A program made the translations under genes and the position numbers. From positions 807,275 through 871,274 of the forward strand of contig NZ_LMMV01000001.1 of the NCBI RefSeq assembly GCF_001422405.1: a stretch of DNA of 64,000 bases, in the 5' to 3' direction. Position 1 is the stretch's first letter. Each line of letters begins with the position of its first letter. This document shows positions 9,801 to 55,360 of the stretch, piece by piece. Source of the stretch: Pseudorhodoferax sp. Leaf267. Its GTDB lineage: Bacteria; Pseudomonadota; Gammaproteobacteria; Burkholderiales; Burkholderiaceae_C. The notes beneath the pieces were generated by a model. The model had not been told where the DNA came from. It made no database searches and saw only the letters and a program-made list of their open reading frames with translations.

Positions 9801-9866
9801 GCTGCGCCGGCCCTTGATGTTGCGGTTGGCACTCGACGTGCGCACGAGCATCAACAGAGATCCAAC

Positions 9867-11294: not shown

Positions 11295-11307
11295 ACCCTT
11301 TCCCCGC

Positions 11308-13052: not shown

Positions 13053-13057
13053 GGGCC

Positions 13058-13076
13058 GACCTGGTCAGGCCAGGTC
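13058..13076. terminator. Hairpin between convergent genes
   Basis: GACCTGG and CCAGGTC form a 7-bp stem with a five-base loop, six bases after one stop codon and spanning the stop codon of the opposing gene. There is no T-run, so intrinsic termination would be weak. Confidence 0.35.
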
Positions 13077-13469
13077 TTCGATCACCAGCATGCGGTACTT
13101 CTCGGCGAAGGAGAACGGTGCGGTGCGCACCACGTCCATGACCGCCTCGGTCTCGTCGGCATCGGGTGCGTGGACCATCAGGGCCCAGTGGCCCTGGCCG
13201 GCCAGGGCCGCGTACTGGCGCACGGTGGCCGCTTCGGTGCCGGCCGAAGGAAGAGGGATGTCAGCGCTGCCCACCGTTCGCACCACCTTTTCCAGCACGT
13301 CCTGCGGGCTGAGCAGGATCACCGGTTCCTTGGACAGCGATGCGCGCTCGATCGTCTGGCCCACACTCTTGGCATCAGCTTCCGTCGGAAACATGGCGAA
13401 GATGTACCCGGTGGGGTAGAAAACGCCCGCCATGGTGAGCATGTTGGGCTGCAGGTCGAGGGCTTGCAT
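13065..13469 (-). CDS. Hypothetical protein, about 134 residues
   Basis: I do not recognise a named family. The sequence looks like a small soluble alpha/beta protein, with no signal peptide or membrane segment. A good ribosome-binding site (AAGGAG) precedes the ATG. Codon use and start signal support a real gene. It is convergent with the coiled-coil gene and lies downstream of, and co-oriented with, the M14 peptidase gene. Confidence 0.7.
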   Translation of the reverse strand: MQALDLQPNMLTMAGVFYPTGYIFAMFPTEADAKSVGQTIERASLSKEPVILLSPQDVLEKVVRTVGSADIPLPSAGTEAATVRQYAALAGQGHWALMVHAPDADETEAVMDVVRTAPFSFAEKYRMLVIEDLA

Positions 13470-13548
13470 GGCAACTCCTTAAGGTTGCCTCGATTGCAGC
13501 CGGTTGCGGCCATTGCCGCTGTCGGCGCGATTGGCCGAACGCTGTAGG

Positions 13549-15381: not shown

Positions 15382-15466
15382 GGTTGCATGGGGCTATGCG
15401 CGGGACGGGCTGCGCGGGTTCTGCGTGCGCGAGAGTCGATCGGTGCGACCGATGGCCCTCGCGGGG

Positions 15467-15706
15467 TCAATACTGGCTCTGGCTCGGTGGGGCCAGCACG
15501 GCCATCAGCGCTTCGGCCGTGACCTCGAACGACAGCAGCTTGCGCTCCGTGCCTTCGACCGAGGCCAGCAGGTCGCGCGTGAGATCGAGCTCGTGGCGCA
15601 AGCCCTTGATGGAGTCCAGGTCGCCCCGGTGGGGTGCCAGCAGCAGTTTCACAGCGGCAAGCAAGGCCAGCTGCGAGCCTGCAGAGTCGTCGTGGGTGTG
15701 AGGCAT
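15467..15706 (-). CDS. Small hypothetical protein, 79 residues
   Basis: Begins MPHTHDDSAGSQ, with GGAG upstream of the ATG at a sensible distance. It is helical and leucine-rich with alternating charges and has no signal peptide. I do not recognise the family. Longer upstream extensions of the frame run antisense through another gene and are rejected. It sits upstream of the M14 peptidase on the same strand. Confidence 0.6.
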   Translation of the reverse strand: MPHTHDDSAGSQLALLAAVKLLLAPHRGDLDSIKGLRHELDLTRDLLASVEGTERKLLSFEVTAEALMAVLAPPSQSQY

Positions 15707-15835
15707 GGTGAGCTCCGGTATGAGGCGCACAGTATGCCCTGGGCCGTGGCCCGCCTGCCCCTGCGCCGCGCCGGACAAACCCGCGTGCCGCATGGGCAAA
15801 ATGGCAGGCCCGCCGCTTTGCTGCCCCTTGCCACC

Positions 15836-16561
15836 ATGTCCGCCATTTCCCTGCCGCGCGTGCACGCGCGCCGCCTGCGCGAGGTCTACCGCTCGGCAGG
15901 CTGGCCTTACCAAGACCCGCTGGAGCTCGAGCTGCTGGCCGGCGGCCTGCTCGAACGCAGCTGCGACGGCGGCCGCGAGACCGTGCGCCTGACAGAGACC
16001 GGCATCCAGGCAGTGGCGCAGAGCCTGGCGGCGGGCCGGCGTGCGCGCTCGGCGCACGAGGACCTGGTCGACCTGGTGGCCCGCGCGATGGGCCGGGAGG
16101 GCCGCATCGTGTGGCGCGGGCTGTCCTTGCGGGCCCTGGTGCCGGGCCAGGAGCCGGACGCGCCCCGGGCCTGGTGCATGGCCTGCCCGGATGTCTTCTC
16201 GATTCGCAACACCTCGGTCGCGACCTACGTGGAGCCCGTGGTGCACGAGGTCAAGGTCAGCCGGGCCGACCTGCTGGGCGACCTGCGCAAGCCGGCCAAG
16301 CGCGCGGCCTACCTGGACCTGGGCGGGCAGTGCTGGTACGTGCTGGGCAACGACGCGCGCGGCCGTGCCATCGGCGATGCCGACGACGTGCCGCCGGAAT
16401 GCGGCGTGATGGCGCTGCAGGCGGGCAGCCTGGCCGTGCTGCGCAACGCGCCGCGGCGTGAGGTGGCGGCCTTGCCGTTCCATGTCTGGATGTCCCTGGC
16501 ACGTGCCACGCCCTGTGCTGGTGCCGACCCCGAGGCGCAACAGGTGCTGCAGGCACTTTGA
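15836..16561 (+). CDS. Predicted PD-(D/E)XK-like protein, MmcB-like
   Basis: About 241 residues. The C-terminal half contains VVHEVKVSRADLLGDLR followed by KRAAYLDLGGQCWYVL. This resembles the acidic-x-lysine core and following segment of MmcB-like and related PD-(D/E)XK nuclease-fold proteins (family resemblance judged by eye). The N-terminal 70 residues look like a winged-helix domain. A DNA repair or restriction-like role is possible but unproven. It is transcribed divergently from the 79-residue gene. The start before SAISLPRVHAR is chosen because the frame upstream has no gene-like sequence. Confidence 0.68.
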   Translation: MSAISLPRVHARRLREVYRSAGWPYQDPLELELLAGGLLERSCDGGRETVRLTETGIQAVAQSLAAGRRARSAHEDLVDLVARAMGREGRIVWRGLSLRALVPGQEPDAPRAWCMACPDVFSIRNTSVATYVEPVVHEVKVSRADLLGDLRKPAKRAAYLDLGGQCWYVLGNDARGRAIGDADDVPPECGVMALQAGSLAVLRNAPRREVAALPFHVWMSLARATPCAGADPEAQQVLQAL

Positions 16562-16655
16562 CGGTGCCCAAGACCTTTGCTGCGCCCGAGGAATCGCCGC
16601 GCAGCCGCGAGGCGCTCGCCTACACTTTGCTTTTCCCGAGAGACGCGACGGCCAC

Positions 16656-17285
16656 ATGATCCGGACACCACGCCGCACTGCCATCCCCCTGCTGGTCTGC
16701 CTCGCCGTCCTGGCCGGCTGCCAGTTCCCCCGCGCGCCCTTGCCGCCGCAGGAGCAGTTCGACTCCAGCTCGACGTTCTCGCGCTCCTTCGGCGCCACGC
16801 CCACCGAGACCTGCGAGGCCGCGCGGCGCGCGCTGCTGAGCCAGGGCTATGTGATCAATGCGGCGACCAAGGACCTGGTCCACGGCCGCAAGAATTTCCA
16901 GCCCGCCATGGACACCCATGTGGAGATGGAGATCCGCGTCGTCTGCGCGCCCGAGACGCGCAGCGGCAAGAGCACGCTGGGCTTCGTGACGGCGCAGCAG
17001 GACCGCTTCGCGCTCAAGAAGAGCAACACCGCGGCGAGCCTGGGCGTGGGGGCGGTGGGCTCGGTGTCGCTGCCGTTCTCGCAGAGCGACGACTCGCTGG
17101 TGCGCATCGGCAGCGAGACCATCTCCACAGAAGACTTCTACGAACGCCTGTTCGTGCTGATCAACCGCTTCCTGCTGGACGAGGAAGAAGAGGAGCAGCA
17201 GCAGCAGGGCGGCGGCCGTGCCCCTCACCCTGACGCGCCCAGCTTTGCGCCATTCGCGGCGCCGTCCTCGAGTCAGCGGGGATGA
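16656..17285 (+). CDS. DUF2242 lipoprotein
   Basis: About 209 residues. A lipoprotein signal (VCLAVLAGCQF, cysteine near residue 22) is followed by the DUF2242 domain, seen as FDSSSTFSRSF, TCEAARRALLSQGYVI, GRKNFQP and SETISTEDFYERLF. The tail is acidic and glutamine-rich (EEEEEQQQQ). The family is common in betaproteobacteria and its function is unknown. TACACT at 16621-16626 could be a -10 box. A palindrome follows the stop within six bases. Confidence 0.82.
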   Translation: MIRTPRRTAIPLLVCLAVLAGCQFPRAPLPPQEQFDSSSTFSRSFGATPTETCEAARRALLSQGYVINAATKDLVHGRKNFQPAMDTHVEMEIRVVCAPETRSGKSTLGFVTAQQDRFALKKSNTAASLGVGAVGSVSLPFSQSDDSLVRIGSETISTEDFYERLFVLINRFLLDEEEEEQQQQGGGRAPHPDAPSFAPFAAPSSSQRG

Positions 17286-17290
17286 GGTGC

Positions 17291-17315
17291 CGGTGTAGGG
17301 AAATTTCCTACACCG
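17291..17315. promoter_or_regulatory. 25-bp palindrome upstream of flhDC
   Basis: CGGTGTAGG and CCTACACCG form perfect 9-bp arms around GAAATTT. The core reads TAGGGAAATTTCCTA, close to the inverted heptads (TTTCCTA type) bound by the NarL/FixJ-family regulator BvgA in Bordetella. It lies about 150 bp before flhD and six bases after the DUF2242 stop, so an RNA stem acting as a terminator is the alternative, though no T-run follows. Confidence 0.5.
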
Positions 17316-17464
17316 TGCGATTCCCGAAGAGACGCGGCGCACATCCGTCTCCCGACTCAAATCTTTTTAGGCGGCAACCACAATTCATTTCAACGGATCG
17401 AGACGGAGTGACTGCAGTAAGTGCAGCAACCGAAGACCCGGGGAAATGTCCAAGGAGTGCAGCC

Positions 17465-17791
17465 ATGAACACCGAGCAGATGATTGCGGAAATCCGCGAA
17501 GCCAACCTCACCTACCTGATGCTGGCGCAGAACCTGATCCGCCAGGACAAGGCCGCCGCGCTGTTCCGCCTGGGTATCCAGGAAGAGGCCGCCGACATCC
17601 TCGGCGCGCTCTCCGCCGCGCAGATCCTCAAGCTGGCCTCGGGCAACATGCTGCTGTGCCACTTCCGCGTGGACGACAACCTGGTCTGGAACCTGTTGAC
17701 CAACCACGACGTGAAGAAGGTCGGCAACGAAGCCACCAACAAGCTGCACGCCAACATCCTGATGGCAGGCCGCCTGGCCGAGATCATCTAG
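17465..17791 (+). CDS. flhD: FlhD, flagellar master transcriptional regulator subunit
   Basis: 108 residues, the normal size. FlhD joins FlhC in the FlhD4C2 complex that activates class II flagellar promoters with sigma-70. The sequence has the FlhD features EIREANLTYLMLAQNLIRQDK and the conserved AAALFRLGI and CHFRVDDN segments. AAGGAG lies about ten bases before the ATG. The 179-base upstream region holds a palindrome and no other gene. A repeat separates it from flhC. Confidence 0.95.
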   Translation: MNTEQMIAEIREANLTYLMLAQNLIRQDKAAALFRLGIQEEAADILGALSAAQILKLASGNMLLCHFRVDDNLVWNLLTNHDVKKVGNEATNKLHANILMAGRLAEII

Positions 17792-17798
17792 AGAAACA

Positions 17799-17893
17799 AC
17801 CCCCAGGCTGCGCACTGCGCGCTTCGCCAGCCCCCTTCTGCTGCGCGAAGGGGGCGCACCCAACGGAGTGGCAGGGCCAGTTCCGCGGGTGCC
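17799..17893 (+). repeat. Intergenic palindromic repeat, copy B (between flhD and flhC)
   Basis: This is the same repeat type as copies A and C, with flanking CCCCCAGGCTGCGCACTGCG. The hairpin is longer (CCCCCTTCTGCTGCGCGAAGGGGGCGC), followed by GTGGCAGGGCCAGTTCCGCGG. It begins eight bases after the flhD stop and lies entirely within the flhDC operon gap. Confidence 0.75.
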
Positions 17894-17975
17894 CCGGCGA
17901 AGTCGCTGCCCTTGCTTGAGACCGGAATCGCGGCACTGCCGTGTTCCCAGACGAGATAGACCCAAGGAGAAATAT

Positions 17976-18521
17976 ATGGCTGCCGCTTCCACCAAGAGTG
18001 TCCTGAACGATTCGCGCCAGATCGAGCGCGCTGCGATGCTGATCCAGATGGGCGCGCGCATGCAAGTGCTGGAGTCCGAGACCGAGCTGTCCTATGAGCG
18101 GCTTCTGCGCCTGTACAAGGAAGTGGCGGGCAAGTCGCCGTCCAAGGGCCAATTGCCGTTCTCCACGGACTGGTTCCTCTCCTGGCAGGAGAACATCCAC
18201 TCCTCGCTGTTCCTGAACATCTACGAGTACCTGTCCAAGAGCCTGGACATCGACTCGATCGACAACCTGACCAAGGCCTACCGGCTGTACCTGGAGCAGG
18301 TGGAAGCAGCCGAGATCGACCCTTTGCTGTCCTTCACGCGCGCCTGGCGCCTCGTGAAGTTCGTCGACGCCAACATGCTCAACATGACCAAGTGCAGCAG
18401 CTGCGGCGGCAATTTCGTCTCGGAGCTCTACGAGAACCCGCGCAGCTACGTCTGCGGCCTGTGCAACCCGCCGGCGCGTGCGGGCAAGTGCAAGGGCGAG
18501 CGGTCGCTGATGCTGCAGTAA
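17976..18521 (+). CDS. flhC: FlhC, flagellar master transcriptional regulator subunit
   Basis: 181 residues. FlhC is the DNA-contacting subunit of FlhD4C2. Conserved sequences include the RQIERAAMLIQMGARMQVLE helix near the start, FSTDWFLSWQENIHSSLF near residue 68, and four zinc-binding cysteines in KCSSCGG (near 139) and YVCGLC (near 159). AAGGAG precedes the ATG at normal distance. The 184-base gap from flhD, filled mostly by the repeat, is larger than in many flhDC operons. Confidence 0.95.
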   Translation: MAAASTKSVLNDSRQIERAAMLIQMGARMQVLESETELSYERLLRLYKEVAGKSPSKGQLPFSTDWFLSWQENIHSSLFLNIYEYLSKSLDIDSIDNLTKAYRLYLEQVEAAEIDPLLSFTRAWRLVKFVDANMLNMTKCSSCGGNFVSELYENPRSYVCGLCNPPARAGKCKGERSLMLQ

Positions 18522-41560: not shown

Positions 41561-43393
41561 TCAGGGCTTGGACTGCTTGAGCGCTTCCTGCATGGCCTTC
41601 ATCGGGTCGTCGTCGCCTTCGGCCGCGCTCCCGGCGGGCGCATCGCTGGCGGCCCCGGAGGGCTCCTGCGCAGGCTTCTCATCGGCGCCATAGCCGCCAT
41701 CGGAGCCGTAACCGCCGTCGCCCTTGCTGTCGCTGCCGCTGTCGGGGCTCAGCCCTTCGCGCATCTGGTCGCCAATGGCCTTGAGGTCATAGGTCTGCGC
41801 CTTGTCCAGGCTGCCCGTGACCAGGTTGGGGAAGGCGATCATCACGCCCACCATGCACAGCTGGATCAGCAAAAACGGGATCGCGCCCTTGTAGATCTGC
41901 ATGGTCGTGACCGGGTCCATCACCTTCTTGGTCACGCGATCCACGTAGGGCTTGTCCGGCGCCACGGAGCGCAGGAAGAACAGCGCGAAGCCGAACGGCG
42001 GGTGCATGAACGAGGTCTGCATGTTCATGGCCAGCAGCACGCCGAACCAGATCAGGTCGATGCCCAGCTTGTCGGCCACAGGCGCCAGCAACGGCACCAC
42101 GATGAAGGACAGCTCGAAGTAGTCCAGGAAGAATGCCAGGAAGAACACCAGCACGTTGACGAAGATCAGGAAGCCCACCTGGCCACCGGGCAGGGCGGCC
42201 AGCAGGTGCTCCACCCAGATCGGGCCGTCGGCGGCCTGGAACACCAGGCCGAAGACCGTGGCGCCGATCAGGATGAACATCACGAAGCTGCCCAGCTTGG
42301 TGGTGCTGGCCAGCGCCTGCTTGAGCAGCGACAGGCCCAGGCGCCCGCGCGCCCAGGCCATCACCAGCGCACCGATGGCGCCCATCGCGCCGCCCTCGGT
42401 GGGCGTGGCCACGCCCAGGAAGATGGTGCCCAGCACCAGGAAGATCAGCAGCAGCGGTGGGATCAGCACGAAGGTCACGCGCTCTGCCAGTCGCGACAGA
42501 AGGCCGAGCCTGGTGAACTTGTTGAAGAGCGCGATCAGCAGCGCCACCGTGGCGCCGCCGCACATGGCGACGACCACCTTCTCGTCGGTGGCGACCGAGG
42601 TGACCTCCTCGCCGAGCCACCAGCTATGCACCTCGGGCATGTGCCGGGCCAGGAACACCGAGACCAGGAACGAGATCACCATCAGCACCAGGAGCGAGGG
42701 GTAACCGCCGCTGCCGTTGGGCTCGCGGTACACGCGCGCCTCGGGCGGCAGCGCCGGCACGCTGGCCGGCTTGAAGATCGCCAGCGCGGCGATGTAGAGC
42801 ACATAGCAGCCCACCAGCATGAAGGCCGGCACGAAAGCGCCCTTGTACATGTCCCCGACGCTGCGGCCGAGCTGGTCGGCCATGATGATCAGCACCAGGG
42901 ACGGCGGGATGATCTGCGCCAGCGTGCCCGAGGCTGCGATCACGCCGCTGGTGAATTTGCGGTCATAGCCGTAGCGCAACATGATGGGCAGCGAGATCAG
43001 GCCCATGGAGATGACCGAGGCCGCGACCACGCCCGTGGTGGCAGCCAGCAGCGCGCCGACGAAGACCACCGCCAGGGCCAGGCCGCCGCGCATCGGGCCG
43101 AACACCTGGCCCACGGTGTCGAGCAGGTCCTCGGCCATGCCGCTGCGCTCCAGAATCAGCCCCATCAGCGTGAAGAAGGGCACGGCCAGCAGCGTGTCGT
43201 TGGCCATGATGCCGATCAGCCGTTGTGGCAGCCAGGCCAGCACGGAGGCGGGGAACACCCCGAGCTCGATCCCGATGATGCCGAAGGTCAGGCCGCAGGC
43301 GCCCAGGCTGAACGCCACCGGAAAGCCAAGCAGCAAAAAGCAGATCAGCCCCGCGAACATGATCGGGGCGAAGTTGGTGGTGATGAATTCCAT
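41561..43393 (-). CDS. dctM: TRAP transporter large permease DctM with acidic C-terminal tail
   Basis: 610 residues, against about 430 for standard DctM. The first 520 or so residues are the membrane domain with about 12-14 helices (GLILERSGMAEDLLDT, IPPSLVLIIMADQ, GVATPTEGGAMGA). It is of the long DctM type with extra helices. The last 70 residues are a hydrophilic, glycine/serine/aspartate-rich tail (GYGSDGGYGADEK and similar) ending in a charged helix. It follows dctQ by 20 bases. Confidence 0.88.
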   Translation of the reverse strand: MEFITTNFAPIMFAGLICFLLLGFPVAFSLGACGLTFGIIGIELGVFPASVLAWLPQRLIGIMANDTLLAVPFFTLMGLILERSGMAEDLLDTVGQVFGPMRGGLALAVVFVGALLAATTGVVAASVISMGLISLPIMLRYGYDRKFTSGVIAASGTLAQIIPPSLVLIIMADQLGRSVGDMYKGAFVPAFMLVGCYVLYIAALAIFKPASVPALPPEARVYREPNGSGGYPSLLVLMVISFLVSVFLARHMPEVHSWWLGEEVTSVATDEKVVVAMCGGATVALLIALFNKFTRLGLLSRLAERVTFVLIPPLLLIFLVLGTIFLGVATPTEGGAMGAIGALVMAWARGRLGLSLLKQALASTTKLGSFVMFILIGATVFGLVFQAADGPIWVEHLLAALPGGQVGFLIFVNVLVFFLAFFLDYFELSFIVVPLLAPVADKLGIDLIWFGVLLAMNMQTSFMHPPFGFALFFLRSVAPDKPYVDRVTKKVMDPVTTMQIYKGAIPFLLIQLCMVGVMIAFPNLVTGSLDKAQTYDLKAIGDQMREGLSPDSGSDSKGDGGYGSDGGYGADEKPAQEPSGAASDAPAGSAAEGDDDPMKAMQEALKQSKP

Positions 43394-43413
43394 CGAGGTC
43401 GTCTCCGGCGCGC

Positions 43414-44028
43414 TCAGCGGGCCACGGCAGGGGTTTCGGCGGCCGCGGCCAGCTCGCGCTGGCGCAGGATGTCGGCCAGCTCTTCTTCAGCGGTCTTCTC
43501 GCCGGCCTTCACCGTCGGGTCCGGCCCTTTGCCGCCAAGAAAGGCAATGCGCTTGATGAGCTCGGACCAGCCCTGCAGCATCAGCAGGCTGAAGCCGAGC
43601 GGCAGGGCCAGCCACACCGGCCAGCGGATCAGGCCGCCGGGGTTGCCCGACATCTCGCCGCTCTGGTACTGCTGGATCGTCATCGGCACGGTGTAGTACA
43701 GCACCAGCAGGCACAGCGGCGTCAGGAACAAGGCGAAGCCCACGATGTCGATCCAGATCTGAGCCTTCTTGGGCAGGCGGCTGTTCAACACGTCGATGCG
43801 CACATGCTCGCGGTTCAGCAGCGTGAAACCCGCTGCGAGCAGGAAAGACCAGGCGAACAGATACCACTGGACTTCGAGGTAGGCGTTGGAACTGGTATTG
43901 AACACCTTGCGCACCACCGCATTGATGGCGCTGATGGCCGTGGAGGCCAGGATCAACCAGATCACCCACTTGCCGACCTGGGCGTTGAGCCAGTCGATGG
44001 CCCGCGATAGCTTTAACAAGCCTTGCAT
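43414..44028 (-). CDS. dctQ: TRAP transporter small permease DctQ
   Basis: 204 residues with four hydrophobic segments, typical of DctQ (STAISAINAVVRKVFNTSSNAYLEVQWYLFAWSFLLAAGF begins the conserved region). The charged C-terminal 45 residues are cytoplasmic. AAAGAGGAAGAC gives a strong ribosome-binding site. It is co-operonic with dctM and pairs with the dctP-type protein on the other strand. Confidence 0.88.
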   Translation of the reverse strand: MQGLLKLSRAIDWLNAQVGKWVIWLILASTAISAINAVVRKVFNTSSNAYLEVQWYLFAWSFLLAAGFTLLNREHVRIDVLNSRLPKKAQIWIDIVGFALFLTPLCLLVLYYTVPMTIQQYQSGEMSGNPGGLIRWPVWLALPLGFSLLMLQGWSELIKRIAFLGGKGPDPTVKAGEKTAEEELADILRQRELAAAAETPAVAR

Positions 44029-46091: not shown

Positions 46092-46979
46092 TCAAGCCGC
46101 GCCCCGGTGCGCCGCCAGCGCCGCGACGATCTCGGGCAGCAGCCGGTCCGGGCCGGCCTCGCGCACGCCCAGTTCCAGGTTCTGCAACACCGCCTGGGCG
46201 ACGGCCTGCACAGCCCCGGCCTCTTCGGCCATGGCGTTGTAGTAGCCCAGGTCCTTGCATGCGTTCGACAGCGAAAAGCGCAGGCCCGAGGCGTCCTGCG
46301 CCGTGATGTAGGGGCGCAGCCGCTCCAGAGCCGCGCCGCCGCCGCCGCCCTTGGCCAGCACGTCGACGAAGACCTCGGGTGCCACGCCGGCGCGCTGCGC
46401 GCAGGCCGCCGCCTCGGCCAGCAGCGTCACGAAGCCCAGCGACACATAGTTGTGCAGCAGCTTCATGCGGTGGCCGGCGCCGACCGGCCCGGCGTGCGTG
46501 ATGTTCTCGGCAAAGCAGGCCAGCAGCGGCCGGCATTCGGCGAACAGCGCGTCGTCGCCGCCGACCAGCAGGTTGAGCCGGCCCTCGTGCGCCTCCTTGG
46601 GCGTGCGCGTCATCGGCGCGTCCAGGAAGCGGCCGCCGGCTGCGACCACCGCCTCGGCCACGCGCTCAGTGGAGGACGGCACGGCCGTGGAGCAGTCGAT
46701 CACCACGCTGCCGGGTCGCAGGCCCTGCAGTACACCGTCGTCGCCCAGCAGCACGGCCTCGACCTGGGGCGTCCCGGTGACGCACAGGATCACAATGTCC
46801 GAGCCGGCGGCCAGAGCCCGGGCGCTCGTGGCGGTGGTGACGCCGGCTGCCTCGAGCTCGTCCAGCGGCTGGTTGCCCGCATGCTCGAGCACCGTGAGCG
46901 GATAGCCGTGCCTGGCGATGTTGCGCGCAATGCCGTGGCCCATCATGCCGATGCCGACCATGCCGATCTTGTGTTTCAT
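46092..46979 (-). CDS. 3-hydroxyisobutyrate dehydrogenase-family oxidoreductase
   Basis: 295 residues. The Rossmann motif GIGMMGHGIARNI at the start, the substrate-binding DAPMTRTPKEAHEGRLNLLVGG segment, and the catalytic lysine region GAGHRMKLLHNY near residue 171 identify a beta-hydroxyacid dehydrogenase. Relatives include L-threonate, tartronate semialdehyde and hydroxyisobutyrate dehydrogenases. It is divergent from the isopropylmalate-type dehydrogenase across 77 bases and near the apionate-type operon, which suggests sugar-acid metabolism. Confidence 0.82.
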   Translation of the reverse strand: MKHKIGMVGIGMMGHGIARNIARHGYPLTVLEHAGNQPLDELEAAGVTTATSARALAAGSDIVILCVTGTPQVEAVLLGDDGVLQGLRPGSVVIDCSTAVPSSTERVAEAVVAAGGRFLDAPMTRTPKEAHEGRLNLLVGGDDALFAECRPLLACFAENITHAGPVGAGHRMKLLHNYVSLGFVTLLAEAAACAQRAGVAPEVFVDVLAKGGGGGAALERLRPYITAQDASGLRFSLSNACKDLGYYNAMAEEAGAVQAVAQAVLQNLELGVREAGPDRLLPEIVAALAAHRGAA

Positions 46980-47056: not shown

Positions 47057-48139
47057 ATGCCCATCTACGACATCGCCACCATCGAGGGCGACGGCATCGG
47101 CCCCGAGGTCTGCCGCTCGGCCGTGAACGTGCTCAGCCAAGCCTGCGGCGCCACGCTGCGCTTCACGCAACTGGACGGCGGCGCCGCGCACTATGTGAAG
47201 ACCGGCGCCGTGCTGCCCGACGACACCTTCGCCGCCTGCCGCTCCATGCACGCCATGCTGCATGGCGCGGCCGGCCTGCCGGGCGTGACGTATCCGGACG
47301 GCACCGAGGTCGGCAACGACGTGCACCTGCAGCTGCGTTTCAGGCTCGACCTGTTCGCCAACGTGCGGCCGATCCGCCTTTACGCGGGCGTGCAGTCGCC
47401 GCTGGCGGGCTTTCCGCCCGGCCGTATCGACTACGTCATCGTGCGCGAGAACACCGAGGGCCTGTACGCCAGCCGCGGCGCGGGCGTGAACCTGCGCGGC
47501 GAGGTGGTGACGGACACCCTGGTCGTCACGCGCAAGGGCACCGAGCGCGTGGCCCGCTTCGCGTTCGAACTCGCGCGCCGGCGCAGCGGGGCGCCGCGCG
47601 ACGGCCAGCGCCGCGTGACCGTCTGCGACAAGGCCAACATCCTGCGCAGCTACGCGTTCTTTCGCGCCGTGTGCGACGAGGTCAAGGCCGGCTACGACGA
47701 CGTGGCGATCGACTACGCCTACGCCGATGCGATCACCGTGCACATGCTCAAGAAGCCCGACTTCTACGACGTGATCGTGGCCGAGAACATGTTCGGCGAC
47801 ATCATTTCCGACCTGGGCGCGGGCACCGTGGGCGGGCTGGGCATCGCGGCCTCGGCCGAGCTCGGCGAGCGACATGGCCTGTTCCAGGGCGCGCACGGCT
47901 CGGCGCCCGACATCGCGGGCCAGAACCTGGCGAGCCCGGTCGCCACCGTGCTGTCGGGCGCGTTGATGCTGCGCTGGCTGGGCGAGCAGCATGGCGATGA
48001 GTCGCTGCGCGCGGGCGCCGACCGGGTCGAACAGGCGGTGGAGGCCGTGCTGGCCGCGGGCCAGATCGTGCCGCGCGACCTGGGTGGCAGCGCCAGCTGC
48101 AGCGAGATGACCGAGGCGATCTGCCGGCGCCTGCGCTGA
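47057..48139 (+). CDS. Isocitrate/isopropylmalate/tartrate dehydrogenase-family protein
   Basis: 360 residues. This is a metal-dependent decarboxylating beta-hydroxyacid dehydrogenase: EGDGIGPEV at the start, ENTEGLYASRG near residue 134, CDKANILRSYAFF (catalytic Lys) near 192, the aspartates in FGDIISDL near 250, and GAHGSAPDIAGQN for NAD binding near 278. Substrate specificity cannot be read by eye. It is convergent with the gntR-type gene (two bases between stops) and probably belongs to the same sugar-acid catabolic island. Confidence 0.85.
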   Translation: MPIYDIATIEGDGIGPEVCRSAVNVLSQACGATLRFTQLDGGAAHYVKTGAVLPDDTFAACRSMHAMLHGAAGLPGVTYPDGTEVGNDVHLQLRFRLDLFANVRPIRLYAGVQSPLAGFPPGRIDYVIVRENTEGLYASRGAGVNLRGEVVTDTLVVTRKGTERVARFAFELARRRSGAPRDGQRRVTVCDKANILRSYAFFRAVCDEVKAGYDDVAIDYAYADAITVHMLKKPDFYDVIVAENMFGDIISDLGAGTVGGLGIAASAELGERHGLFQGAHGSAPDIAGQNLASPVATVLSGALMLRWLGEQHGDESLRAGADRVEQAVEAVLAAGQIVPRDLGGSASCSEMTEAICRRLR

Positions 48140-48141: not shown

Positions 48142-48876
48142 TCAGGTTTTGCCGCGCAGGCCCTGTTCCTGCGCGATGCGCTGGTACATGACGTTGGAGC
48201 GCGTGAGGTGCGCGCGCATCGCGGCGTCGGCCGCATCGCCGTCGTGCGCCGCGATCGCGTCCACGATGCGCTGGTGTTCGGCCAGCGTCAGCTGCTCGGC
48301 GCCCGGCGCCCGCACCATGGCCTGGTAGTAGTCGCTGCCCCAGCGGAAGATGGCCTCGACCACGGCCGTGAAGATCGGGTTGCCGCTGATGCGCGCGATC
48401 TCGCGGTGAAAGGCCATGTCGCGGTCCACGAACTCGCTGAGCTGCGCCAGCGAGGCGGCCTGCGCATCCAGCCGCTGCTGCAGCAGCGCCACGTCCTCGG
48501 GCGTGGCCAGCGCGGCGGCCATGCGCGCGGTGCCGGCTTCCAAAAAGATGCGCGCGTCTTTCATGTGCTCCAGCGTGTCGGGCTGCATGCTCAACAAATG
48601 GCGCGCGCCGCTGCCGATCTGGCGGATCAGGTCGTCTGCCGTGGGCACCACCACGCGGGCGCGCTCGCCGTGCGAGATCTCCACGATGCCCGAGCGCTCC
48701 AGCGCCTGCAGCGCCTCGCGCACGGCGGGCCGGCCCACGCCGTACTGGTCCATCAGCTCGCGCTCGGGCGGCAGCTGGTCGCCGGGGCGGATCTCGCCGC
48801 TCTCGATGCGGGCCATCAGGCGGTCGACGACCTCCTGGTAGAGCTTGCGTTTCTGGATCGGGCCGGTGGCGGTCAT
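48142..48876 (-). CDS. GntR/FadR-family (FCD) transcriptional regulator
   Basis: 244 residues. The winged-helix domain spans residues 10-75 (YQEVVDRLMARIESGEIRPGDQLPPERELMDQYGVGRPAVREALQALE), followed by an all-helical FCD effector domain with the metal-ligand residues in DMAFHREIA and LAEHQRIVDAI. It resembles NanR-type regulators. As the last gene of the apionate-type operon it is the best candidate for autoregulated local control through a sugar acid. Confidence 0.88.
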   Translation of the reverse strand: MTATGPIQKRKLYQEVVDRLMARIESGEIRPGDQLPPERELMDQYGVGRPAVREALQALERSGIVEISHGERARVVVPTADDLIRQIGSGARHLLSMQPDTLEHMKDARIFLEAGTARMAAALATPEDVALLQQRLDAQAASLAQLSEFVDRDMAFHREIARISGNPIFTAVVEAIFRWGSDYYQAMVRAPGAEQLTLAEHQRIVDAIAAHDGDAADAAMRAHLTRSNVMYQRIAQEQGLRGKT

Positions 48877-48921
48877 GCGGGCTGCGCGGGCGGGCGAGGG
48901 CGGGGGAACGGGGGCCGGCCA

Positions 48922-50310
48922 TTATCCGGGGGGCGGTGGCGCCACCCCGTCGCGCGCGGCAGCGAAGAAATCGGGGCCGCCGAGCTGGCCGCCCTTGAGC
49001 ACGATCTGTAGCCCGTCGCGGCGCGCGTCGGCCGACCAGGCGCGGCACAGCGGCGCGCCAGGCGCCAGGCTGGCGGCCACCGTCAAGGCCTGGATGCCGA
49101 GCGCCGCTGCCACCTCGCCCGAGCTGTCGCCGCCTGCCACCGCGATGCGGCGCAGCGCGGGCGTGCGTTCCAGCAGCCGGCGCATCACGCGGGCCAGGGC
49201 CTCGCCCGTGCGGCGCGCGGCCTGCTCGCGCGTGAGGCCGGCGCGCCGGGCGGTGGCGTCGAAGTCGCGCACCGCCGGGTCGTCCGGCCCCTGCGCCGTG
49301 TAGACCAGCAGGCTGCGGCCCTGCGCCAGCGCGGCGCTGGCCGCGGAGACGGCGCGTTCGATCTCGGCGTCTTCGCCCGCACCGAACAGTTGCGCCAGGT
49401 CGAGCCGCAGCGTGTCGAAACCTTGCTCCGCAGCACGCGCGATCTGCCGCGCCGTGACGGGCGAGCAGCTGCCGCTGACCGCTGCGATGGCGCCGGCCGA
49501 CGTGGCAACGGGCAGGGCGGCCGGCTCCGGCAGCAGCCCGGCCGCGCGCCAGTACGCCGCCAGCGCGTATTGCAGGCCCGACGACGAGGCGCTGAACACG
49601 CCCGCGCCGCGCTGTTCCCAGACCAGCCGGCCGGCTTCGCGCAAGGTGTCCTCGTCCAGCACGTCCACCAGCACGATGGGCGCGGCCTGCGCCACCGCGC
49701 AATGGCTTGCCAGCACCTCTGCCCCACGGCAGGCCTTGAGCTGCGTGAAGTCCACCAGCGCGCGCGGGCGCTCGGTCTGCGCGCCCAGGTGGCGGGCGAG
49801 GTCCGCCTCGGCCATGGGCGTGACCGGGTGGCGCGACATCGTGGGGTGCCGGTCCAGCCGGTGGCCCCGGCCGTCCACCACGGCGAACAGATTGCCGAAC
49901 GCCTGGTAGCGCCCCAGCCGCGGCGCGCCGACCACCATGGGCGACCAGCTGCCTGGCATCAGCGGCACGCCCAGGTCGATGGCGCGGCCAATGGAGCCGA
50001 TGGCGGGCGAGGAATCGAAGGTGGAGCACACCTTGTACTGCAGCAGCGGCGCGCCCAGGGCGGCCAGCGACTGCAGCGCGGGCTGCAAATGCAGGTCCAT
50101 CCAGGCCGGGTCGCGACCGCGCGAGGTGCCGGCCAGGCCCACGCAGCGCACATCGGGGAAGCGCGCGAGCGCCGCCGCGTCGGGTGGCTGCAGGAACAGC
50201 ACGGTCGCCACGCCGGCCCGCGTGAACGCCTCCAGCACATCCGTGGAGCCCGTGAAGTCGTCGCCGTAGTAGGCGAGCAGCAGGCCATCGGGCAGGGCAG
50301 TCGCGGCCAT
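48922..50310 (-). CDS. Four-carbon acid sugar kinase family (DUF1537), OiaK-like
   Basis: About 462 residues. The N-terminal substrate domain shows LAYYGDDFTGSTDVLEAFTRAG, and the C-terminal nucleotide-binding domain shows the GGDSSGEVAAALGIQ loop and LKGGQLGGPDFF. The family phosphorylates four-carbon and branched sugar acids; OiaK acts on 3-oxo-isoapionate. Its place directly after a RuBisCO-like gene and in an operon with an ApnO-like gene favours OiaK. The ATG overlaps the preceding stop (TGATG), with GGGAGC as ribosome-binding site. Confidence 0.85.
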   Translation of the reverse strand: MAATALPDGLLLAYYGDDFTGSTDVLEAFTRAGVATVLFLQPPDAAALARFPDVRCVGLAGTSRGRDPAWMDLHLQPALQSLAALGAPLLQYKVCSTFDSSPAIGSIGRAIDLGVPLMPGSWSPMVVGAPRLGRYQAFGNLFAVVDGRGHRLDRHPTMSRHPVTPMAEADLARHLGAQTERPRALVDFTQLKACRGAEVLASHCAVAQAAPIVLVDVLDEDTLREAGRLVWEQRGAGVFSASSSGLQYALAAYWRAAGLLPEPAALPVATSAGAIAAVSGSCSPVTARQIARAAEQGFDTLRLDLAQLFGAGEDAEIERAVSAASAALAQGRSLLVYTAQGPDDPAVRDFDATARRAGLTREQAARRTGEALARVMRRLLERTPALRRIAVAGGDSSGEVAAALGIQALTVAASLAPGAPLCRAWSADARRDGLQIVLKGGQLGGPDFFAAARDGVAPPPPG

Positions 50311-51590
50311 CACCAGCTCCCCAGCGCCGCCTGCAGTTCCGGGTGCTGCGCGGCATGCGTGGCCAGCGGCACGCCGGCCATGGCCGCGTCCCAGGCCTGG
50401 CGCATGGCGGCCACGCCGGCGCGGATGCCGCCGGGGTGCCCCAGGATGCCGCCGCCGGCCGCGTGGATCAGATCGCAACTGCCGACCTGCTGGTAGGTGG
50501 GCGCGGCCTGCAGCCCGGTCTGGCCCGAGCTGAACACCGGCATGGCCGCCATGGGCTGCTCGTCGAAGGCCGGCGTCAGCACGGCGCGCGCGGCGGCGAC
50601 CACGCTGGCGTCGGGCTCGCTGAACTTGTTGGCCAGGCCGTTCACGTGCAGGTGGTCGGCACCGGCCAGGCGCCAGAACAGCTGCCAGGGCGCGTAGTCC
50701 CAGCCCAGCGCGGCGCAGCGCGACAGGTAGCCCCACCCGGCGCGGTGCGCGTGGATGGGCAGCTGCGTGTGCTTGCGCAGCGCCAGCAAACCGGCCAGGC
50801 CGATGGAGTTCAGGCAGACCATCACGCAGGTGCCGCCCAGCGCCAGCACCAGGTCGTGCCGGGCGCGCATCTCGTCCAGGTCGCCCGTGATGTTGAACGC
50901 GACCATGGCCTTGCGGCCGGTGCGCGCGGCGGCGTCGTGCACCACCTGCATGACGGCGCGGGCGCGCTCGTCGAACGGGCAGTGCGGGCCGTCGGCCTGC
51001 AGTTCGTCGTCCTTGATGAAGTCGATGCCGCCCTCGACCAGCAGGCGCACGGTCTCGGCCGTCTGCGCAGGCGACAGGCCCACGCTGGGCTTGATGATGG
51101 TGCCGATCAGCGGCCGGCCGTGCACGTCCGCCAGTGCACGCGTGCCGGCGATGCCGAAGGCCGGGCCGGGTGACGCGGTGGCGAATTCCTGGGGTAGTCG
51201 CAGCCCCAGCAGCCGCAGCCCCGAGACCTGGCGCAGCTCGAACAGGTTGCCGGCCACCGTGGCCATGAGGTTGGGCAGCGACGGGCCCATGTTGTCGAGC
51301 GGCCACGACAGATCGAGGTGGCAGCGCGTGTAGCGGCTGCTGGCCATGCCGCCGGGCAGGCTGGGGCGGTCGCTGTGGTCGATCACGTCGAGCCGCTCGA
51401 CGCGCGCGCCGGCGCGGGCCTTGAGCTCCGGCGTCTCGCCGGGCACGGCGGTGAAGGTGCCGCTGGACTGCTCGCCTGCGATGACCTCGGCGGCGCGCTG
51501 CGGGTCGTCGCCGGTCTCCAGCCAGTAGCGGGCGTGGATGCGGCCGTCGGCCGATGCGAAGCTGGTGGGCATGCTGGATTCCCCGTTCAT
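50310..51590 (-). CDS. RuBisCO-like protein (OiaX/OiaT-type candidate)
   Basis: About 426 residues. The TIM-barrel RuBisCO large-chain fold is seen from GTIIKPSVGL (167-172, where true RuBisCO has KPKLGL), the carbamylated-lysine segment FIKDDE (193-196), HAHRAGWG, NGLANKF in place of loop 6 GKLEG, and AGGGILGHPGG near the end. It is therefore a form IV protein, not a carbon-fixing enzyme. With a DUF1537 kinase and ApnO homologue, a role in decarboxylating or cleaving 3-oxo-isoapionate 4-phosphate is inferred. The ATG overlaps the dctM stop (ATGA); an ATG at 51572 with GGGGA upstream is an alternative start. Confidence 0.88.
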   Translation of the reverse strand: MNGESSMPTSFASADGRIHARYWLETGDDPQRAAEVIAGEQSSGTFTAVPGETPELKARAGARVERLDVIDHSDRPSLPGGMASSRYTRCHLDLSWPLDNMGPSLPNLMATVAGNLFELRQVSGLRLLGLRLPQEFATASPGPAFGIAGTRALADVHGRPLIGTIIKPSVGLSPAQTAETVRLLVEGGIDFIKDDELQADGPHCPFDERARAVMQVVHDAAARTGRKAMVAFNITGDLDEMRARHDLVLALGGTCVMVCLNSIGLAGLLALRKHTQLPIHAHRAGWGYLSRCAALGWDYAPWQLFWRLAGADHLHVNGLANKFSEPDASVVAAARAVLTPAFDEQPMAAMPVFSSGQTGLQAAPTYQQVGSCDLIHAAGGGILGHPGGIRAGVAAMRQAWDAAMAGVPLATHAAQHPELQAALGSW

Positions 51591-52879
51591 TTGAAGCCCA
51601 GCGCACGCGGCATCCAGGTGGACAGCGCGGGCACGAAGGTCAGCAGCACCAGCACCACGCCGTGCGCCCACAGGAAGGGCACGAGCTCGCGCACCAGCGG
51701 CCCCATGGGCACCTTGGACACGTTGGCCGTCACGAACAGCAGCCCGCCCACGGGCGGCGTGATCATGCCCAGCGTGAGGTTGAAGATCACGACCATCGCG
51801 AAGTGCACCGGGTCGATGCCCAGCTTGATCGCCACCGGCGCGAGGATGGGCACCAGCACCATCACGCCCGGCAGCGGCTCGATGAAGATGCCGAACAGCA
51901 GCAGGAAGATGTTCACGAGGATGAGGAACATCCACGGCGACAGGCTCATGCTCACCAGCCACTCGGCCAGCTGCTGCGGAATGCCCTCGATGGTCAGCAC
52001 CCAGGCGAACGCCGACGACAGGCCGATGATGATCAGCACCGACGCGCTGAGCAGGGCCGAGCGCGACAGGATGTCGGGCAGCGCTTTCCACTGCAGCGTG
52101 CGGTAGACGAACTTGCCGCAGACCAGCGCATAGAACACCGCCACCACCGAGGCCTCCGTCGGCGTGAACCAGCCCGCGCGCATGCCGCCCAGGATCACCA
52201 CCGGCAGCAGGATGGCCGGCAGCGCGCGCCAGGTGGTGGCCAGGATTTCGGGCAGCGAGGGCAACTGCCCGTCGCCCCTGTAGTTGCGCTGCTTGGAGAC
52301 GCGGTAGTTCACCACGCACATCGCGACGGCGATCAGGATGCCCGGCAGGATGCCGGCCACGAACAGCGCGCCGACCGAGACCGTCTCGTCCTGCAGCGCG
52401 TAGATGATCATGGTGATGGACGGCGGAATGATCGGGCCCACGATGGCGGTGGAGGCGGTGAGCGCCGCGGCGTACGGGCGGTCGTAGCCGGCCTTGTCCA
52501 TCATGCGGATCAGCATGGAGCCAGGCCCCGCCGCGTCGGCCAGCGCCGAGCCGGAGATGCCCGAGAAGAAGGTCAGCGACACCACGTTCGTGTAGCCCAG
52601 CCCGCCGCGCTTGTGGCCCACGAACTGGCCGGCGAAGCGCAGCAGCACCTCGGTCAGCGAGCCGCCGCTCATGAGTTCGGCCGCCAGGATGAAAAAGGGC
52701 ACGGCCATGAGCGGGAAGCTGTCCATGCCCGTGAAGGTCTCCTTGAGCAGCACCATGAGCGGATAGTTTTCGGCCAGGATCAGCGTGGCGGCCGTCGCCA
52801 GCCCCAGTGCGAAGGCCACGGGCACGCCGATGGCCAGGAAGATGCAGGCCGAGGTGATGAGGACGACGGCGGCGTTCAT
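51587..52879 (-). CDS. dctM: TRAP transporter large permease DctM (apionate-type operon)
   Basis: About 430 residues with around twelve hydrophobic segments, the standard DctM length. Family segments include FFSGISGSALADAAGPGSML, IVGPIIPPSITMIIYA and TPTEASVVAVFYAL. It overlaps dctQ upstream and the RuBisCO-like gene downstream by four bases each, so the transporter and the catabolic enzymes are translationally coupled. Confidence 0.92.
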   Translation of the reverse strand: MNAAVVLITSACIFLAIGVPVAFALGLATAATLILAENYPLMVLLKETFTGMDSFPLMAVPFFILAAELMSGGSLTEVLLRFAGQFVGHKRGGLGYTNVVSLTFFSGISGSALADAAGPGSMLIRMMDKAGYDRPYAAALTASTAIVGPIIPPSITMIIYALQDETVSVGALFVAGILPGILIAVAMCVVNYRVSKQRNYRGDGQLPSLPEILATTWRALPAILLPVVILGGMRAGWFTPTEASVVAVFYALVCGKFVYRTLQWKALPDILSRSALLSASVLIIIGLSSAFAWVLTIEGIPQQLAEWLVSMSLSPWMFLILVNIFLLLFGIFIEPLPGVMVLVPILAPVAIKLGIDPVHFAMVVIFNLTLGMITPPVGGLLFVTANVSKVPMGPLVRELVPFLWAHGVVLVLLTFVPALSTWMPRALGFK

Positions 52880-53388
52880 AGAGAGGCACTCGCCGTGGCA
52901 TCGAAATGCTCGTCTGACGCGAAGCGGCGCGCCTGCACGTAGCCGCGCACGATGAGCGCGAAGTGCACGATCAGCAGCAGCCCGCCGAACATCATGGCGC
53001 TGTAGATGTAGGCGAACGGGATCTGGGTGACCGGGGTCTGCTGGAACATGGTGCGCTGCATGTAGAGCCAGCCGTACCAGACCATGAACCCGAAGAACGC
53101 GAACAGCAGCGCGGCCACCAGCACGCGCACCGCCATGCCGCCGCCACTCGGAAGCGCGTCCTGCAGGTTCTCCACCGCGATGTGGCCGCCGTAGCGCAGC
53201 ACCGGGCCTGCGCCCAGGAAGGTCAGCCAGATCATCATGTAACGCGCCACCTCCTCGGCCCATTCGAGCGAGGCGTTCGTGGCGTAGCGCATCACCACGT
53301 TGGTGAAGATGATGACCGACATGGAGGCCAGCAGCAGGATCAGCGCCCAGCGGTTGGCGGCGAGGAAATAGCGTTCGAAGGTGGGCAT
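52876..53388 (-). CDS. dctQ: TRAP transporter small permease DctQ (apionate-type operon)
   Basis: 170 residues with four hydrophobic segments and the DctQ signature FTNVVMRYATNASLEWAEEVARYMMIW. Its stop overlaps the dctM start (ATGA). It lies 63 bases after dctP. Confidence 0.92.
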   Translation of the reverse strand: MPTFERYFLAANRWALILLLASMSVIIFTNVVMRYATNASLEWAEEVARYMMIWLTFLGAGPVLRYGGHIAVENLQDALPSGGGMAVRVLVAALLFAFFGFMVWYGWLYMQRTMFQQTPVTQIPFAYIYSAMMFGGLLLIVHFALIVRGYVQARRFASDEHFDATASASL

Positions 53389-53451
53389 GCGCGCGCGGTG
53401 TTCAGCAGGTTGGCCCGGCGCGGGCGGCGCGCCGGGGCGGGGCGCACAGCC

Positions 53452-54429
53452 TCAGCGCACGTCCTGGATCTGCTTGATCCTGTCCGCGCCGAACTCCTTG
53501 GCGTAGGCGACGTAGGCGGGCTTGAGCGCCTCCTGGAACGCAGCCTTGTCCACGTTGCGCACGACCTGCATGCCTTCCTTTTCCAGGAGCGCGACGCCGG
53601 TCGCGTCGTCCTCGTCCACCTTCTTGCGCTGCGCCACCACGCTCAGGCGGGCCGCGTCCTGGAACACCTTTCGGTCAGCCGCGCTGACCTTGTCCCACAG
53701 CCTGTTGGACACCATCAGCAGCGCGGGCGAGTACACGTGGCCGGTCAGCGACAGATACTTCTGCACCTGCGAGAACTTGGCCGTGGTGATGATGGGGATG
53801 GGGTTCTCCTGCCCGTCCACCGTGCCCTGCTGCAGCGCACCGAACACCTCGGGGAAGGACATGGGCGTGGGCATCATGCCGAAGGTGCGGTAGCCGTCCA
53901 TGTGCACCTTGTTCTCCATGGTGCGCACCTTCAGGCCCTTGGTGTCCTCGGGCTTCATGATGGGGCGTTTGCTGTTGGTGATGTGGCGAAAGCCGTTCTC
54001 CGTCCAGGCCAGCGCAATCAGGTTCTTGGAGGGGAACTTGGTCAGCAGGTCCTGCCCGATGGGGCCGTCGAATACCTTGCGCGCATGGTCGTAGTCGCGA
54101 AACAGGAAGGGGATGTCCACCACCTTGATCTCGGGCACGAAGTTGCCGACCGGGCCGGTGGAGGTGATCACGGCGTCCTGCGTGCCCAGCTGCACCGACT
54201 CCACCATCTCGCGCTCGCCGCCCAGCGCCGAGCTGGGGAACTGCTGGCACTTGTAGCGGTTCTGCGTGTTCTTCTCGACCTCGGCGCAGAAGGTGGTCGC
54301 GCCCACTGAATAGTGCGAGCCCTGGGCAGGCGTATAGCCGATCTTGATGGTGGTCTGCGCCTGGGCGCCGGCGGCGAGCAGGGCGAGGGTGGCGGCGAGG
54401 GCGGGGCGGGTCAGATGCAGATGGGGCAT
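53452..54429 (-). CDS. dctP: TRAP transporter solute-binding protein DctP (apionate-type operon)
   Basis: 325 residues. A signal peptide is cleaved near AQAQ. The mature protein is a classical DctP-type binder with ENGFRHITNSKRPIMKPEDTKGLKVRTME (conserved arginine that binds the carboxylate) and PEVFGALQQGTVDGQENP. Its operon partners suggest a branched or four-to-five-carbon sugar acid such as D-apionate as ligand; this is inference. AAGGAGAC lies upstream of the ATG. Confidence 0.9.
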   Translation of the reverse strand: MPHLHLTRPALAATLALLAAGAQAQTTIKIGYTPAQGSHYSVGATTFCAEVEKNTQNRYKCQQFPSSALGGEREMVESVQLGTQDAVITSTGPVGNFVPEIKVVDIPFLFRDYDHARKVFDGPIGQDLLTKFPSKNLIALAWTENGFRHITNSKRPIMKPEDTKGLKVRTMENKVHMDGYRTFGMMPTPMSFPEVFGALQQGTVDGQENPIPIITTAKFSQVQKYLSLTGHVYSPALLMVSNRLWDKVSAADRKVFQDAARLSVVAQRKKVDEDDATGVALLEKEGMQVVRNVDKAAFQEALKPAYVAYAKEFGADRIKQIQDVR

Positions 54430-54466
54430 GGGTGTCTCCTTGGCTGTTGTTGGCGAATGAAAGGGC

Positions 54467-55297
54467 TCAGGTGATGCGGCGGATGCTCTCGGCGATCTCG
54501 TCGCGTTCGAAGACACCCTTCCAGTCGTCCCGCATGAGCCTGGGCTTGCCGAAGGTGATGGCCTTGTTACAGGCGTCGGAGAACTGGCCCGGTATCTCCT
54601 TGAAGATCACGGCCGACAGGATGGTCATGTGGCCCAGCAGGAAGTCGCGTGCCGCATCGGCCGGCACGCCACGGCTGACCACCTCGTCCATGGCCTCGCG
54701 CATCACGTCCAGCAGCGTGGCGCAGACGGTCTCCGACAGGCCAGGCTCCAGCAGCGCCATCTGCTCCACCGTCACGCGGTAGCTGCGCAGGATGGGCGCA
54801 TAGATGGTCTTGGCGATCTCTTCGCCCAGGTCGAAGTCGGCCGGGCTGCCCTGCATCAGCGCGCTCACGACGGACTGCGGCGCGTGGCCACCGCCGAAGA
54901 AGTCGGGCGCGCCGTCCTTGCGCAGGTCGGCGCTGAAGATCGGCGGGTGGCAGGGGTGGGCCACGAAGTACACCAGGTCGGCGCGCTCGGGCAGGTGGCC
55001 GGCGAAGGGCGCGGCAGCGTCCAGCAGCATGACCATGGTGCCGCTCGCCAGGCGCGGCGCGATCGCATGGGCGATCTTGCCGATCAAGGTGTCGGGCACG
55101 GCCAGGATCACGACCTGCGCGCCGTCCAGCGCCGCGGCCTCGTCCACGCACTCGATACCGGCCTCGTCGCGCAGCCGCTTGCGGCCCACTTCGCCCACCT
55201 CCACATGGCGCACCTGGAAGCGCGAACCCTGGAGGTTCTTGGCCAGGCGTACGCCCATCTTTCCGCCTGCGCCGAGCAGGGCAATCGTCGTTGTCAT
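54467..55297 (-). CDS. ApnO-like D-apionate oxidoisomerase candidate
   Basis: 276 residues. An N-terminal Rossmann domain (ALLGAGGKMGVRLAKNL) is followed by a C-terminal domain of the type annotated as phosphogluconate dehydrogenase-like C-terminal, the architecture of ApnO, which converts D-apionate to 3-oxo-isoapionate with NAD+. Internal landmarks are FVAHPCHPPIFSAD near residue 112 and KPRLMRDDWKGVF near the end. It is the first gene of an operon with a kinase and a RuBisCO-like protein, matching the expected pathway order. Confidence 0.75.
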   Translation of the reverse strand: MTTTIALLGAGGKMGVRLAKNLQGSRFQVRHVEVGEVGRKRLRDEAGIECVDEAAALDGAQVVILAVPDTLIGKIAHAIAPRLASGTMVMLLDAAAPFAGHLPERADLVYFVAHPCHPPIFSADLRKDGAPDFFGGGHAPQSVVSALMQGSPADFDLGEEIAKTIYAPILRSYRVTVEQMALLEPGLSETVCATLLDVMREAMDEVVSRGVPADAARDFLLGHMTILSAVIFKEIPGQFSDACNKAITFGKPRLMRDDWKGVFERDEIAESIRRIT

Positions 55298-55322: not shown

Positions 55323-55360
55323 TGACCTGATGGTATGATGACTAGGTCACGATCAGGTCA
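55323..55360. promoter_or_regulatory. AGGTCA half-site array upstream of the apionate-type operon
   Basis: TGACCTGAT (55323-55331) and ATCAGGTCA (55352-55360) are perfect 9-bp inverted arms. A further AGGTCA at 55344-55349 lies 11 bp from the last one, one helical turn. TGGTATGATGA in the middle matches the FadR-family consensus TnGTnnnACnA at all but one defined position. The array sits 26-63 bp before the first gene of the operon. Confidence 0.55.

Follow-up and report, generated by a model that had tools for sequence, protein, structure and literature searches.

The genome of Pseudorhodoferax sp. Leaf267 contains, within a stretch of 64,000 nt (hereafter the window) whose genes were assigned to families by Pfam and NCBIfam profile scans, an operon at positions 48142–55297 that joins a RuBisCO-like protein (RLP) to a tripartite ATP-independent periplasmic (TRAP) importer. 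Open reading frames and Pfam bear out the seven co-oriented, partly overlapping genes of a preliminary description of this DNA: all lie on the minus strand, and each family assignment is backed by Pfam. In order of transcription, they encode an ApnO-like D-apionate oxidoisomerase (276 aa; 54467–55297; PGDH_C and the KARI-like N-terminal domain KARI_N), the solute-binding protein DctP (325 aa; 53452–54429; Pfam DctP), the small permease DctQ (170 aa; 52876–53388; Pfam DctQ), the large permease DctM (430 aa; 51587–52879; Pfam DctM), whose gene overlaps dctQ by 4 bp, the RLP, presumed to be of the OiaT clade (420 aa; 50310–51572; RuBisCO_large), the 3-oxo-isoapionate kinase OiaK of the DUF1537 type (463 aa; 48922–50313; SBD_N and NBD_C), whose gene overlaps that of the RLP, and a NanR-like FCD/GntR regulator (244 aa; 48142–48876; GntR and FCD; 316.2 bits on NF003011, cut-off 260). 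Judged by their spacing, the seven genes probably form one transcript. The same gene set was found again in other species, which argues that the operon is not a chance assembly.

The conserved unit is larger than the seven genes. Upstream, a predicted operator, TCATCATACCATCA (55328–55341, minus strand), stands 30 bp ahead of the start codon of ApnO; downstream lie two linked genes that co-occur with dctP-type modules, one for an isopropylmalate/tartrate-dehydrogenase-like protein, IsoDH (360 aa; 47057–48139, plus strand), and one for a beta-hydroxyacid dehydrogenase, HIBADH (295 aa; 46092–46979, minus strand). With a probability of roughly two in three, we read the locus as an acid-only D-apionate module that combines TRAP import, ApnO, OiaK, an OiaT-type RLP, FCD control and accessory roles for IsoDH and HIBADH.

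Core enzymes and the RuBisCO-like protein

The kinase passes the OiaK model NF042436 with 759.1 bits (cut-off 700). Together with an RLP that fails the models for MtnW, this supports the pathway core that had been proposed from the letters of the sequence, namely ApnO, OiaK and the RLP of D-apionate breakdown. We take the D-apionate oxidoisomerase ApnO to belong to the PGDH_C-type family seen here. The KARI_N match, named for the N-terminal domain of ketol-acid reductoisomerases, fits an enzyme that combines oxidation with rearrangement; orthologs at 73–77% identity stand in loci that also carry ApnL, and the nearest solved relative is 5t57.

For the RLP, the best 80 relatives from a scan were retained, and the tests for ApnL, IsoDH and HIBADH covered 51 genomes, namely its own and those of 50 of these 80 loci. 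In its own genome, ApnL gave no match at 1e-3 and no ApnD ortholog was found, the best ApnD-like match reaching 25% identity. A complete D-apiose pathway is thereby rejected, and the earlier term 'self-contained' holds for the acid and fails for D-apiose. The reading of the locus as a variant of the known pathway that handles the acid only is well supported, with D-apionate as the putative ligand. ApnL was over its cut-off in 10 of the 51 genomes, including one of the 19 whose cluster holds dctP or dctM and four of the 21 in which a major facilitator superfamily (MFS) carrier is present instead. On these counts, the pathway core comes in two forms, one for apiose and one for the acid alone.

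The preliminary description had left the RLP as either OiaX or OiaT. Its best NCBIfam model is indeed that of OiaX, a 3-oxo-isoapionate-4-phosphate decarboxylase (NF042437), and the two belong to the same RLP group; the score is, however, 445.7 bits against a cut-off of 700, whereas a labelled OiaX (L007), to which the window RLP is 46% identical, scores 781.5. Since the window protein also has His309 (in what we assume to be the RuBisCO position numbering) where L007 has Gln, OiaX identity is rejected. The same applies to MtnW, named beforehand as a grouping that would count against the pathway: both of its models failed, with 144.2 vs 513.6 bits for TIGR03332 and 179.1 vs 409 bits for NF007095.

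Of the two, OiaT is the more probable. In a tree of 96 rows, from which the window's own duplicates (L002 and L003) and rows below 380 aa were excluded, the RLP falls into a 68-row clade (100/100 support) together with ApnL-bearing Paraburkholderia-type loci and two Xanthobacter rows, presumed to be OiaT, while the OiaX row lies outside. In Paraburkholderia and relatives, RLP orthologs (72–77%) sit in loci with an apiose-type ATP-binding cassette (ABC) importer, an ApnD-like Gfo/Idh/MocA dehydrogenase, ApnL, ApnO, OiaK and an FCD regulator; the single lactonase scanned from such loci passes the ApnL cut-off (770.4/750). Among 14 Xanthobacter genomes, four hold an RLP ortholog at 69–71%, one of them in a locus that reads MFS-ApnO-RLP-OiaK. 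All other matches there at E 1e-30 or better show 33–35% identity and are taken as form I RuBisCO (PF00016 check in two genomes), and no other non-form-I RLP was seen at that threshold in the 14 genomes. As the RLP of X. autotrophicus is reported, in the accessible part of the source, to be a transcarboxylase/hydrolase (PMC6302742), and as the window RLP shares a clade with Xanthobacter RLPs, OiaT-type cleavage is its presumed reaction and the best call from sequence. At the positions assumed to match the lysine, the metal ligands and the phosphate sites of RuBisCO, the residues are the same in all 96 aligned rows, except for His309 (95/96; Gln in the OiaX row), and a structure model of the RLP (pLDDT 87.5) has 3nwr as its best match, at 48% identity.

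The TRAP importer

The importer is complete, with the solute-binding protein and both permeases together, and the earlier claim that a TRAP system of the sugar-acid type shares an operon with the pathway core is supported. DctP is 72% identical to 4PDD (Polaromonas JS666 Bpro_0088), 59% to 4PDH, 57% to 4P9K/4PAK and 53% to 4NQ8. The ligand held by each is presumably the one of its Enzyme Function Initiative (EFI) entry, pantoate or D-erythronate. In DctP, R148, R169, N209 and E72 are invariant. The protein shares its carboxylate-binding residues with the EFI proteins and itself belongs to an ApnO-linked subclade. As far as the accessible parts of the sources go, 'pantoate/D-erythronate' is the reported binder class for these TRAP proteins (PMC5812351), and these four residues and F192 each carry a number lower by 4 than the ligand-binding positions reported for 4P47 (PMC11668362), as mapped by spacing and not by alignment. 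By chemical reasoning, D-apionate may be viewed as an erythronate that bears a hydroxymethyl branch, and pantoate as its branched analogue; this TRAP system could plausibly import a branched acid.

The window DctP groups with ApnO-adjacent DctPs (8 rows, 100/100) and is 83–84% identical to the same-genus members. In one genome of the same genus, a separate TRAP system is 94% identical in DctM, 84% in DctQ and 75% in DctP, and the apionate cluster of that genome has dctP only. Derivation of the whole window TRAP from this separate system as a unit is rejected, given that the window DctP groups with the cluster DctPs. Because DctP belongs there while DctM is 94% identical to the separate TRAP, the window importer looks like two halves joined, one from an apionate cluster and one from a separate TRAP system.

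Close DctPs occur in 50 of 399 Comamonadaceae genomes. Of the 52 loci around them, 37 have no apionate core (16 of these with a second, distant DUF1537 kinase) and 15 hold it: seven with dctP and no dctM in the stretch, five with two dctP genes and one dctQM, and three with their own dctM. The double-DctP arrangement (L119, likewise L117, L120, L122 and L167) is illustrated by L119, where an erythronate/threonate operon with dctPQM runs into ApnO-dctP-ALDH-SDR-RLP-OiaK-FCD (1932–18087 of the fetched stretch; ALDH, aldehyde dehydrogenase; SDR, short-chain dehydrogenase/reductase). Its upstream half holds L-threonate dehydrogenase, 3-oxo-tetronate kinase, 2-oxo-tetronate isomerase and D-erythronate dehydrogenase over cut-off and a decarboxylase just under it (229.6/250); three of the L119 erythronate/threonate enzymes are over cut-off in L175. 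The DctP survey and the enzymes of these two loci suggest that an erythronate/threonate TRAP family was recruited to apionate modules, sometimes as the binding protein alone.

All ten dctP-only genomes that were examined encode, elsewhere, a DctM of one of two subfamilies (76–94%). One of these subfamilies is present in 86 of 398 Comamonadaceae genomes anyway, and a related DctM is also found in a genome (G138) with no DctP match at 1e-130. Because of this high background, the use of shared DctQM membrane subunits by dctP-only modules is only suggestive. In the accessible part of a study on P. aeruginosa IctPQM/DctP, TRAP binding proteins are described as usually thought to be strictly paired with their membrane part, and its authors suggest that a non-cognate DctP can serve the membrane part of another TRAP (PMC12599236); sharing is thus suggested in both cases, by a mutant phenotype there and by gene arrangement only here.

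Elsewhere in the window (41561–44028), a DctQ-like gene (43414–44028, minus strand) is followed by a long gene (41561–43393, minus strand), which suggests a second TRAP system.

Predicted operator and linked dehydrogenases

The operator TCATCATACCATCA is the sole match in the window with at most one mismatch and was found in none of 100 shuffles. A count over 1,822,959 bases of loci gave 46 copies of its core, TCATACCA, compared with 55.6 expected at equal base use; 28 of the 46 sites lie at most 350 bp before a gene start, namely that of ApnO (19), an MFS carrier (5), an ABC binding protein (1) or unlabelled genes (3). The core is common to TRAP-, MFS- and apiose-type loci, which argues for one inducer shared by the three module types. 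The reverse complement of the operator presumably resembles the NanR repeat GGTATA. The same core also stands before ApnO in loci of Cupriavidus pinatubonensis (L091) and Labrenzia (L097), whose clusters contain quite different RLPs.

IsoDH orthologs (73% or more; the next best match is 51%) were found in 14 of the 51 genomes. They are present in 13 of the 19 genomes with dctP or dctM in the cluster vs one of the 32 without (Fisher p 7e-7, with kinship ignored and L015 assigned manually to the dctP class on the basis of a partial match). HIBADH (61% or more) is present in 12 of the 19 vs 8 of the 32. For both proteins every NCBIfam model stayed below cut-off, and their nearest solved structures, at ~140–220 bits, are 1vpd (tartronate semialdehyde reductase), 1w0d (isopropylmalate dehydrogenase) and 3flk (tartrate dehydrogenase).

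Proposed route, alternatives and related observations

From the computed gene set, families, orthology, undetected ApnL and ApnD, operator and co-occurrence, we infer the imported ligand, every enzymatic step and the control as follows. In the periplasm, DctP would bind D-apionate or a branched sugar acid very similar to it, which DctQM would then bring into the cell. ApnO would then oxidise and rearrange D-apionate to 3-oxo-isoapionate, OiaK would phosphorylate this product, and the RLP, acting as OiaT, would cleave the phosphorylated compound to 3-phosphoglycerate and glycolate, which are reportedly the OiaT products. The NanR-like FCD protein would control the operon via the operator at 55328–55341, and IsoDH and HIBADH would be accessory enzymes, probably widening the range of acids fed in or processing a product.

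Several observations weigh against this reading. The ApnO-like protein matched no NCBIfam model at 1e-5, so its predicted function rests on family and context. The branch of the OiaX row is so long that the tree program marked it, and ApnL-linked RLPs also fall outside the 68-row clade (L006, L075, L080, L081, L083, L085 and L093), so that membership of this clade does not by itself settle which reaction is catalysed. As members of this TRAP family also work in erythronate/threonate operons (L119 and L175), DctP may be broad or the carrier of another acid. IsoDH and HIBADH, finally, are left unexplained by the D-apionate pathway, and an operator copy was looked for in the window before both genes and none was seen.

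These two dehydrogenases lend themselves to an alternative that we consider unlikely, namely that dctP-type modules import another branched acid, such as isoapionate (2-C-hydroxymethyl-tetronate), whose C3 hydroxyl would be oxidised by HIBADH to 3-oxo-isoapionate, by-passing ApnO, while IsoDH would take a malate- or tartrate-like relative and the kinase and RLP would act as in the apionate pathway. Besides the IsoDH co-occurrence, it is favoured by two loci that read HIBADH-RLP-OiaK (L058, 9119–12606; L062, 9116–12603), with HIBADH in the usual place of ApnO, ending 3 bp before the RLP gene, and with no ApnO match in either genome. Both genomes, however, are metagenome drafts whose rows are sisters in the tree, so they represent one event at most and ApnO could sit in a gap; in all, 4 of 32 genomes searched for ApnO lacked it, among them that of L015, which is cut at a contig edge, and that of L076, which comprises 2.1 Mb. 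The alphaproteobacterium Jiella (L084) has RLP, HIBADH, IsoDH, dctPQM, ALDH, ApnO and OiaK together, and Limnohabitans (L042 and L057) has a co-directional ALDH-HIBADH-IsoDH-ApnO-dctPQM-RLP-OiaK-FCD arrangement, which would also suit the by-pass. Against it, HIBADH is less tied to dctP than IsoDH, a HIBADH (69%) lies inside the erythronate/threonate cluster of L175, the Fisher test carries the limits given above, and the window retains ApnO. An extended version, which we hold to be similarly improbable, would make dctP-type modules a separate branched-tetronate route, in which HIBADH and the clade-specific IsoDH, often with an aldehyde dehydrogenase, produce 3-oxo-isoapionate or a related compound with no need of ApnO, and one DctQM is shared by a DctP for the branched acid and a DctP for erythronate, with two binding proteins feeding one pump.

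The importer could instead be a broad C4 sugar-acid (erythronate/threonate) transporter that is merely located in the apionate operon. The identities to the separate same-genus TRAP and the relatives in the two scanned erythronate/threonate operons point this way; the placement of the window DctP in the ApnO-adjacent group, its closeness to the same-genus members and the retention of dctP beside ApnO, with no dctM in the stretch, in 7 of the 15 surveyed Comamonadaceae apionate-core loci make such a transporter doubtful. A module for D-hamamelose or hamamelonate, with the RLP as an oxygenase, the alternative role in sugar metabolism reported for RLPs of this group, would employ similar enzyme classes, and in the accessible part of one report an Ochrobactrum RLP is placed at the end of the hamamelose assimilation route, in connection with 3-phosphoglycerate and glycolate (PMC8914248). 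It is nevertheless very improbable, with a kinase over the OiaK cut-off and RLP orthologs that share loci with an ApnL-positive gene; two Shinella loci with a divergent lactonase, possibly hamamelose clusters (L087 and L090), fall outside the 68-row clade, and the kinase of L087 reaches 474/700.

As an acid-only D-apionate module, the locus shares with the ApnO-OiaK-OiaT branch of D-apiose catabolism an OiaK-grade kinase, the RLP clade, an ApnO-type oxidoreductase and an FCD/NanR-type regulator with its operator, but it has TRAP instead of the apiose ABC importer, IsoDH and HIBADH as linked genes, and a genome in which ApnL and ApnD orthologs were not found. The MFS-ApnO-RLP-OiaK modules of Burkholderiaceae, Herbaspirillum and Xanthobacter have the same core, and 17 of 21 are without ApnL over cut-off; they differ in a D-galactonate-transporter-like MFS carrier in the TRAP slot and in IsoDH orthologs (0/21). 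No paper that combines 'apiose' and 'TRAP transporter' was found in the literature searched, with the founding paper (Carter 2018) outside its reach. The importer, the control site and the two linked dehydrogenases make the locus a distinct variant of a known pathway; the operator, the linkage of IsoDH and HIBADH to dctP-type modules and the modules with DctP but no adjacent DctQM are new here.

As such, one pathway would accommodate two lifestyles: some modules take up apiose (ABC importer, ApnD, ApnL), while others import the free acid through MFS or TRAP carriers and begin there. Modules of the second kind would imply that branched sugar acids occur free in soil and water, a pool that merits a search. 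The operator offers a quick handle for finding more such modules, and IsoDH and HIBADH are two definite genes linked to a known pathway. Loci with dctP alone or with two DctPs open the sharing of binding proteins among TRAP transporters to direct tests.

Further RuBisCO-related observations concern the same genome and its relatives. A second RLP-kinase cluster, with an RLP of another group (G000:C12:262000-281000; L088 7415–14611), contains LacI, an amino-acid-type ABC importer, a VOC/glyoxalase protein, the RLP and a kinase (311/700 for OiaK); clusters of this type in Azospirillum and Roseomonas relatives (L095 and L099) carry TRAP there. A form I RuBisCO large subunit (G000:C21:355000-368000; L089 5645–8447) matches PF00016 only from position 86 and lies between a small subunit and a hydrogenase small-subunit gene, indicating truncation, rearrangement or an assembly join. 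In the public record, a contig labelled as an Akkermansia muciniphila metagenome-assembled genome (L051) bears a module that is almost the same as the one in Limnohabitans Rim28; contamination during binning is the probable cause.

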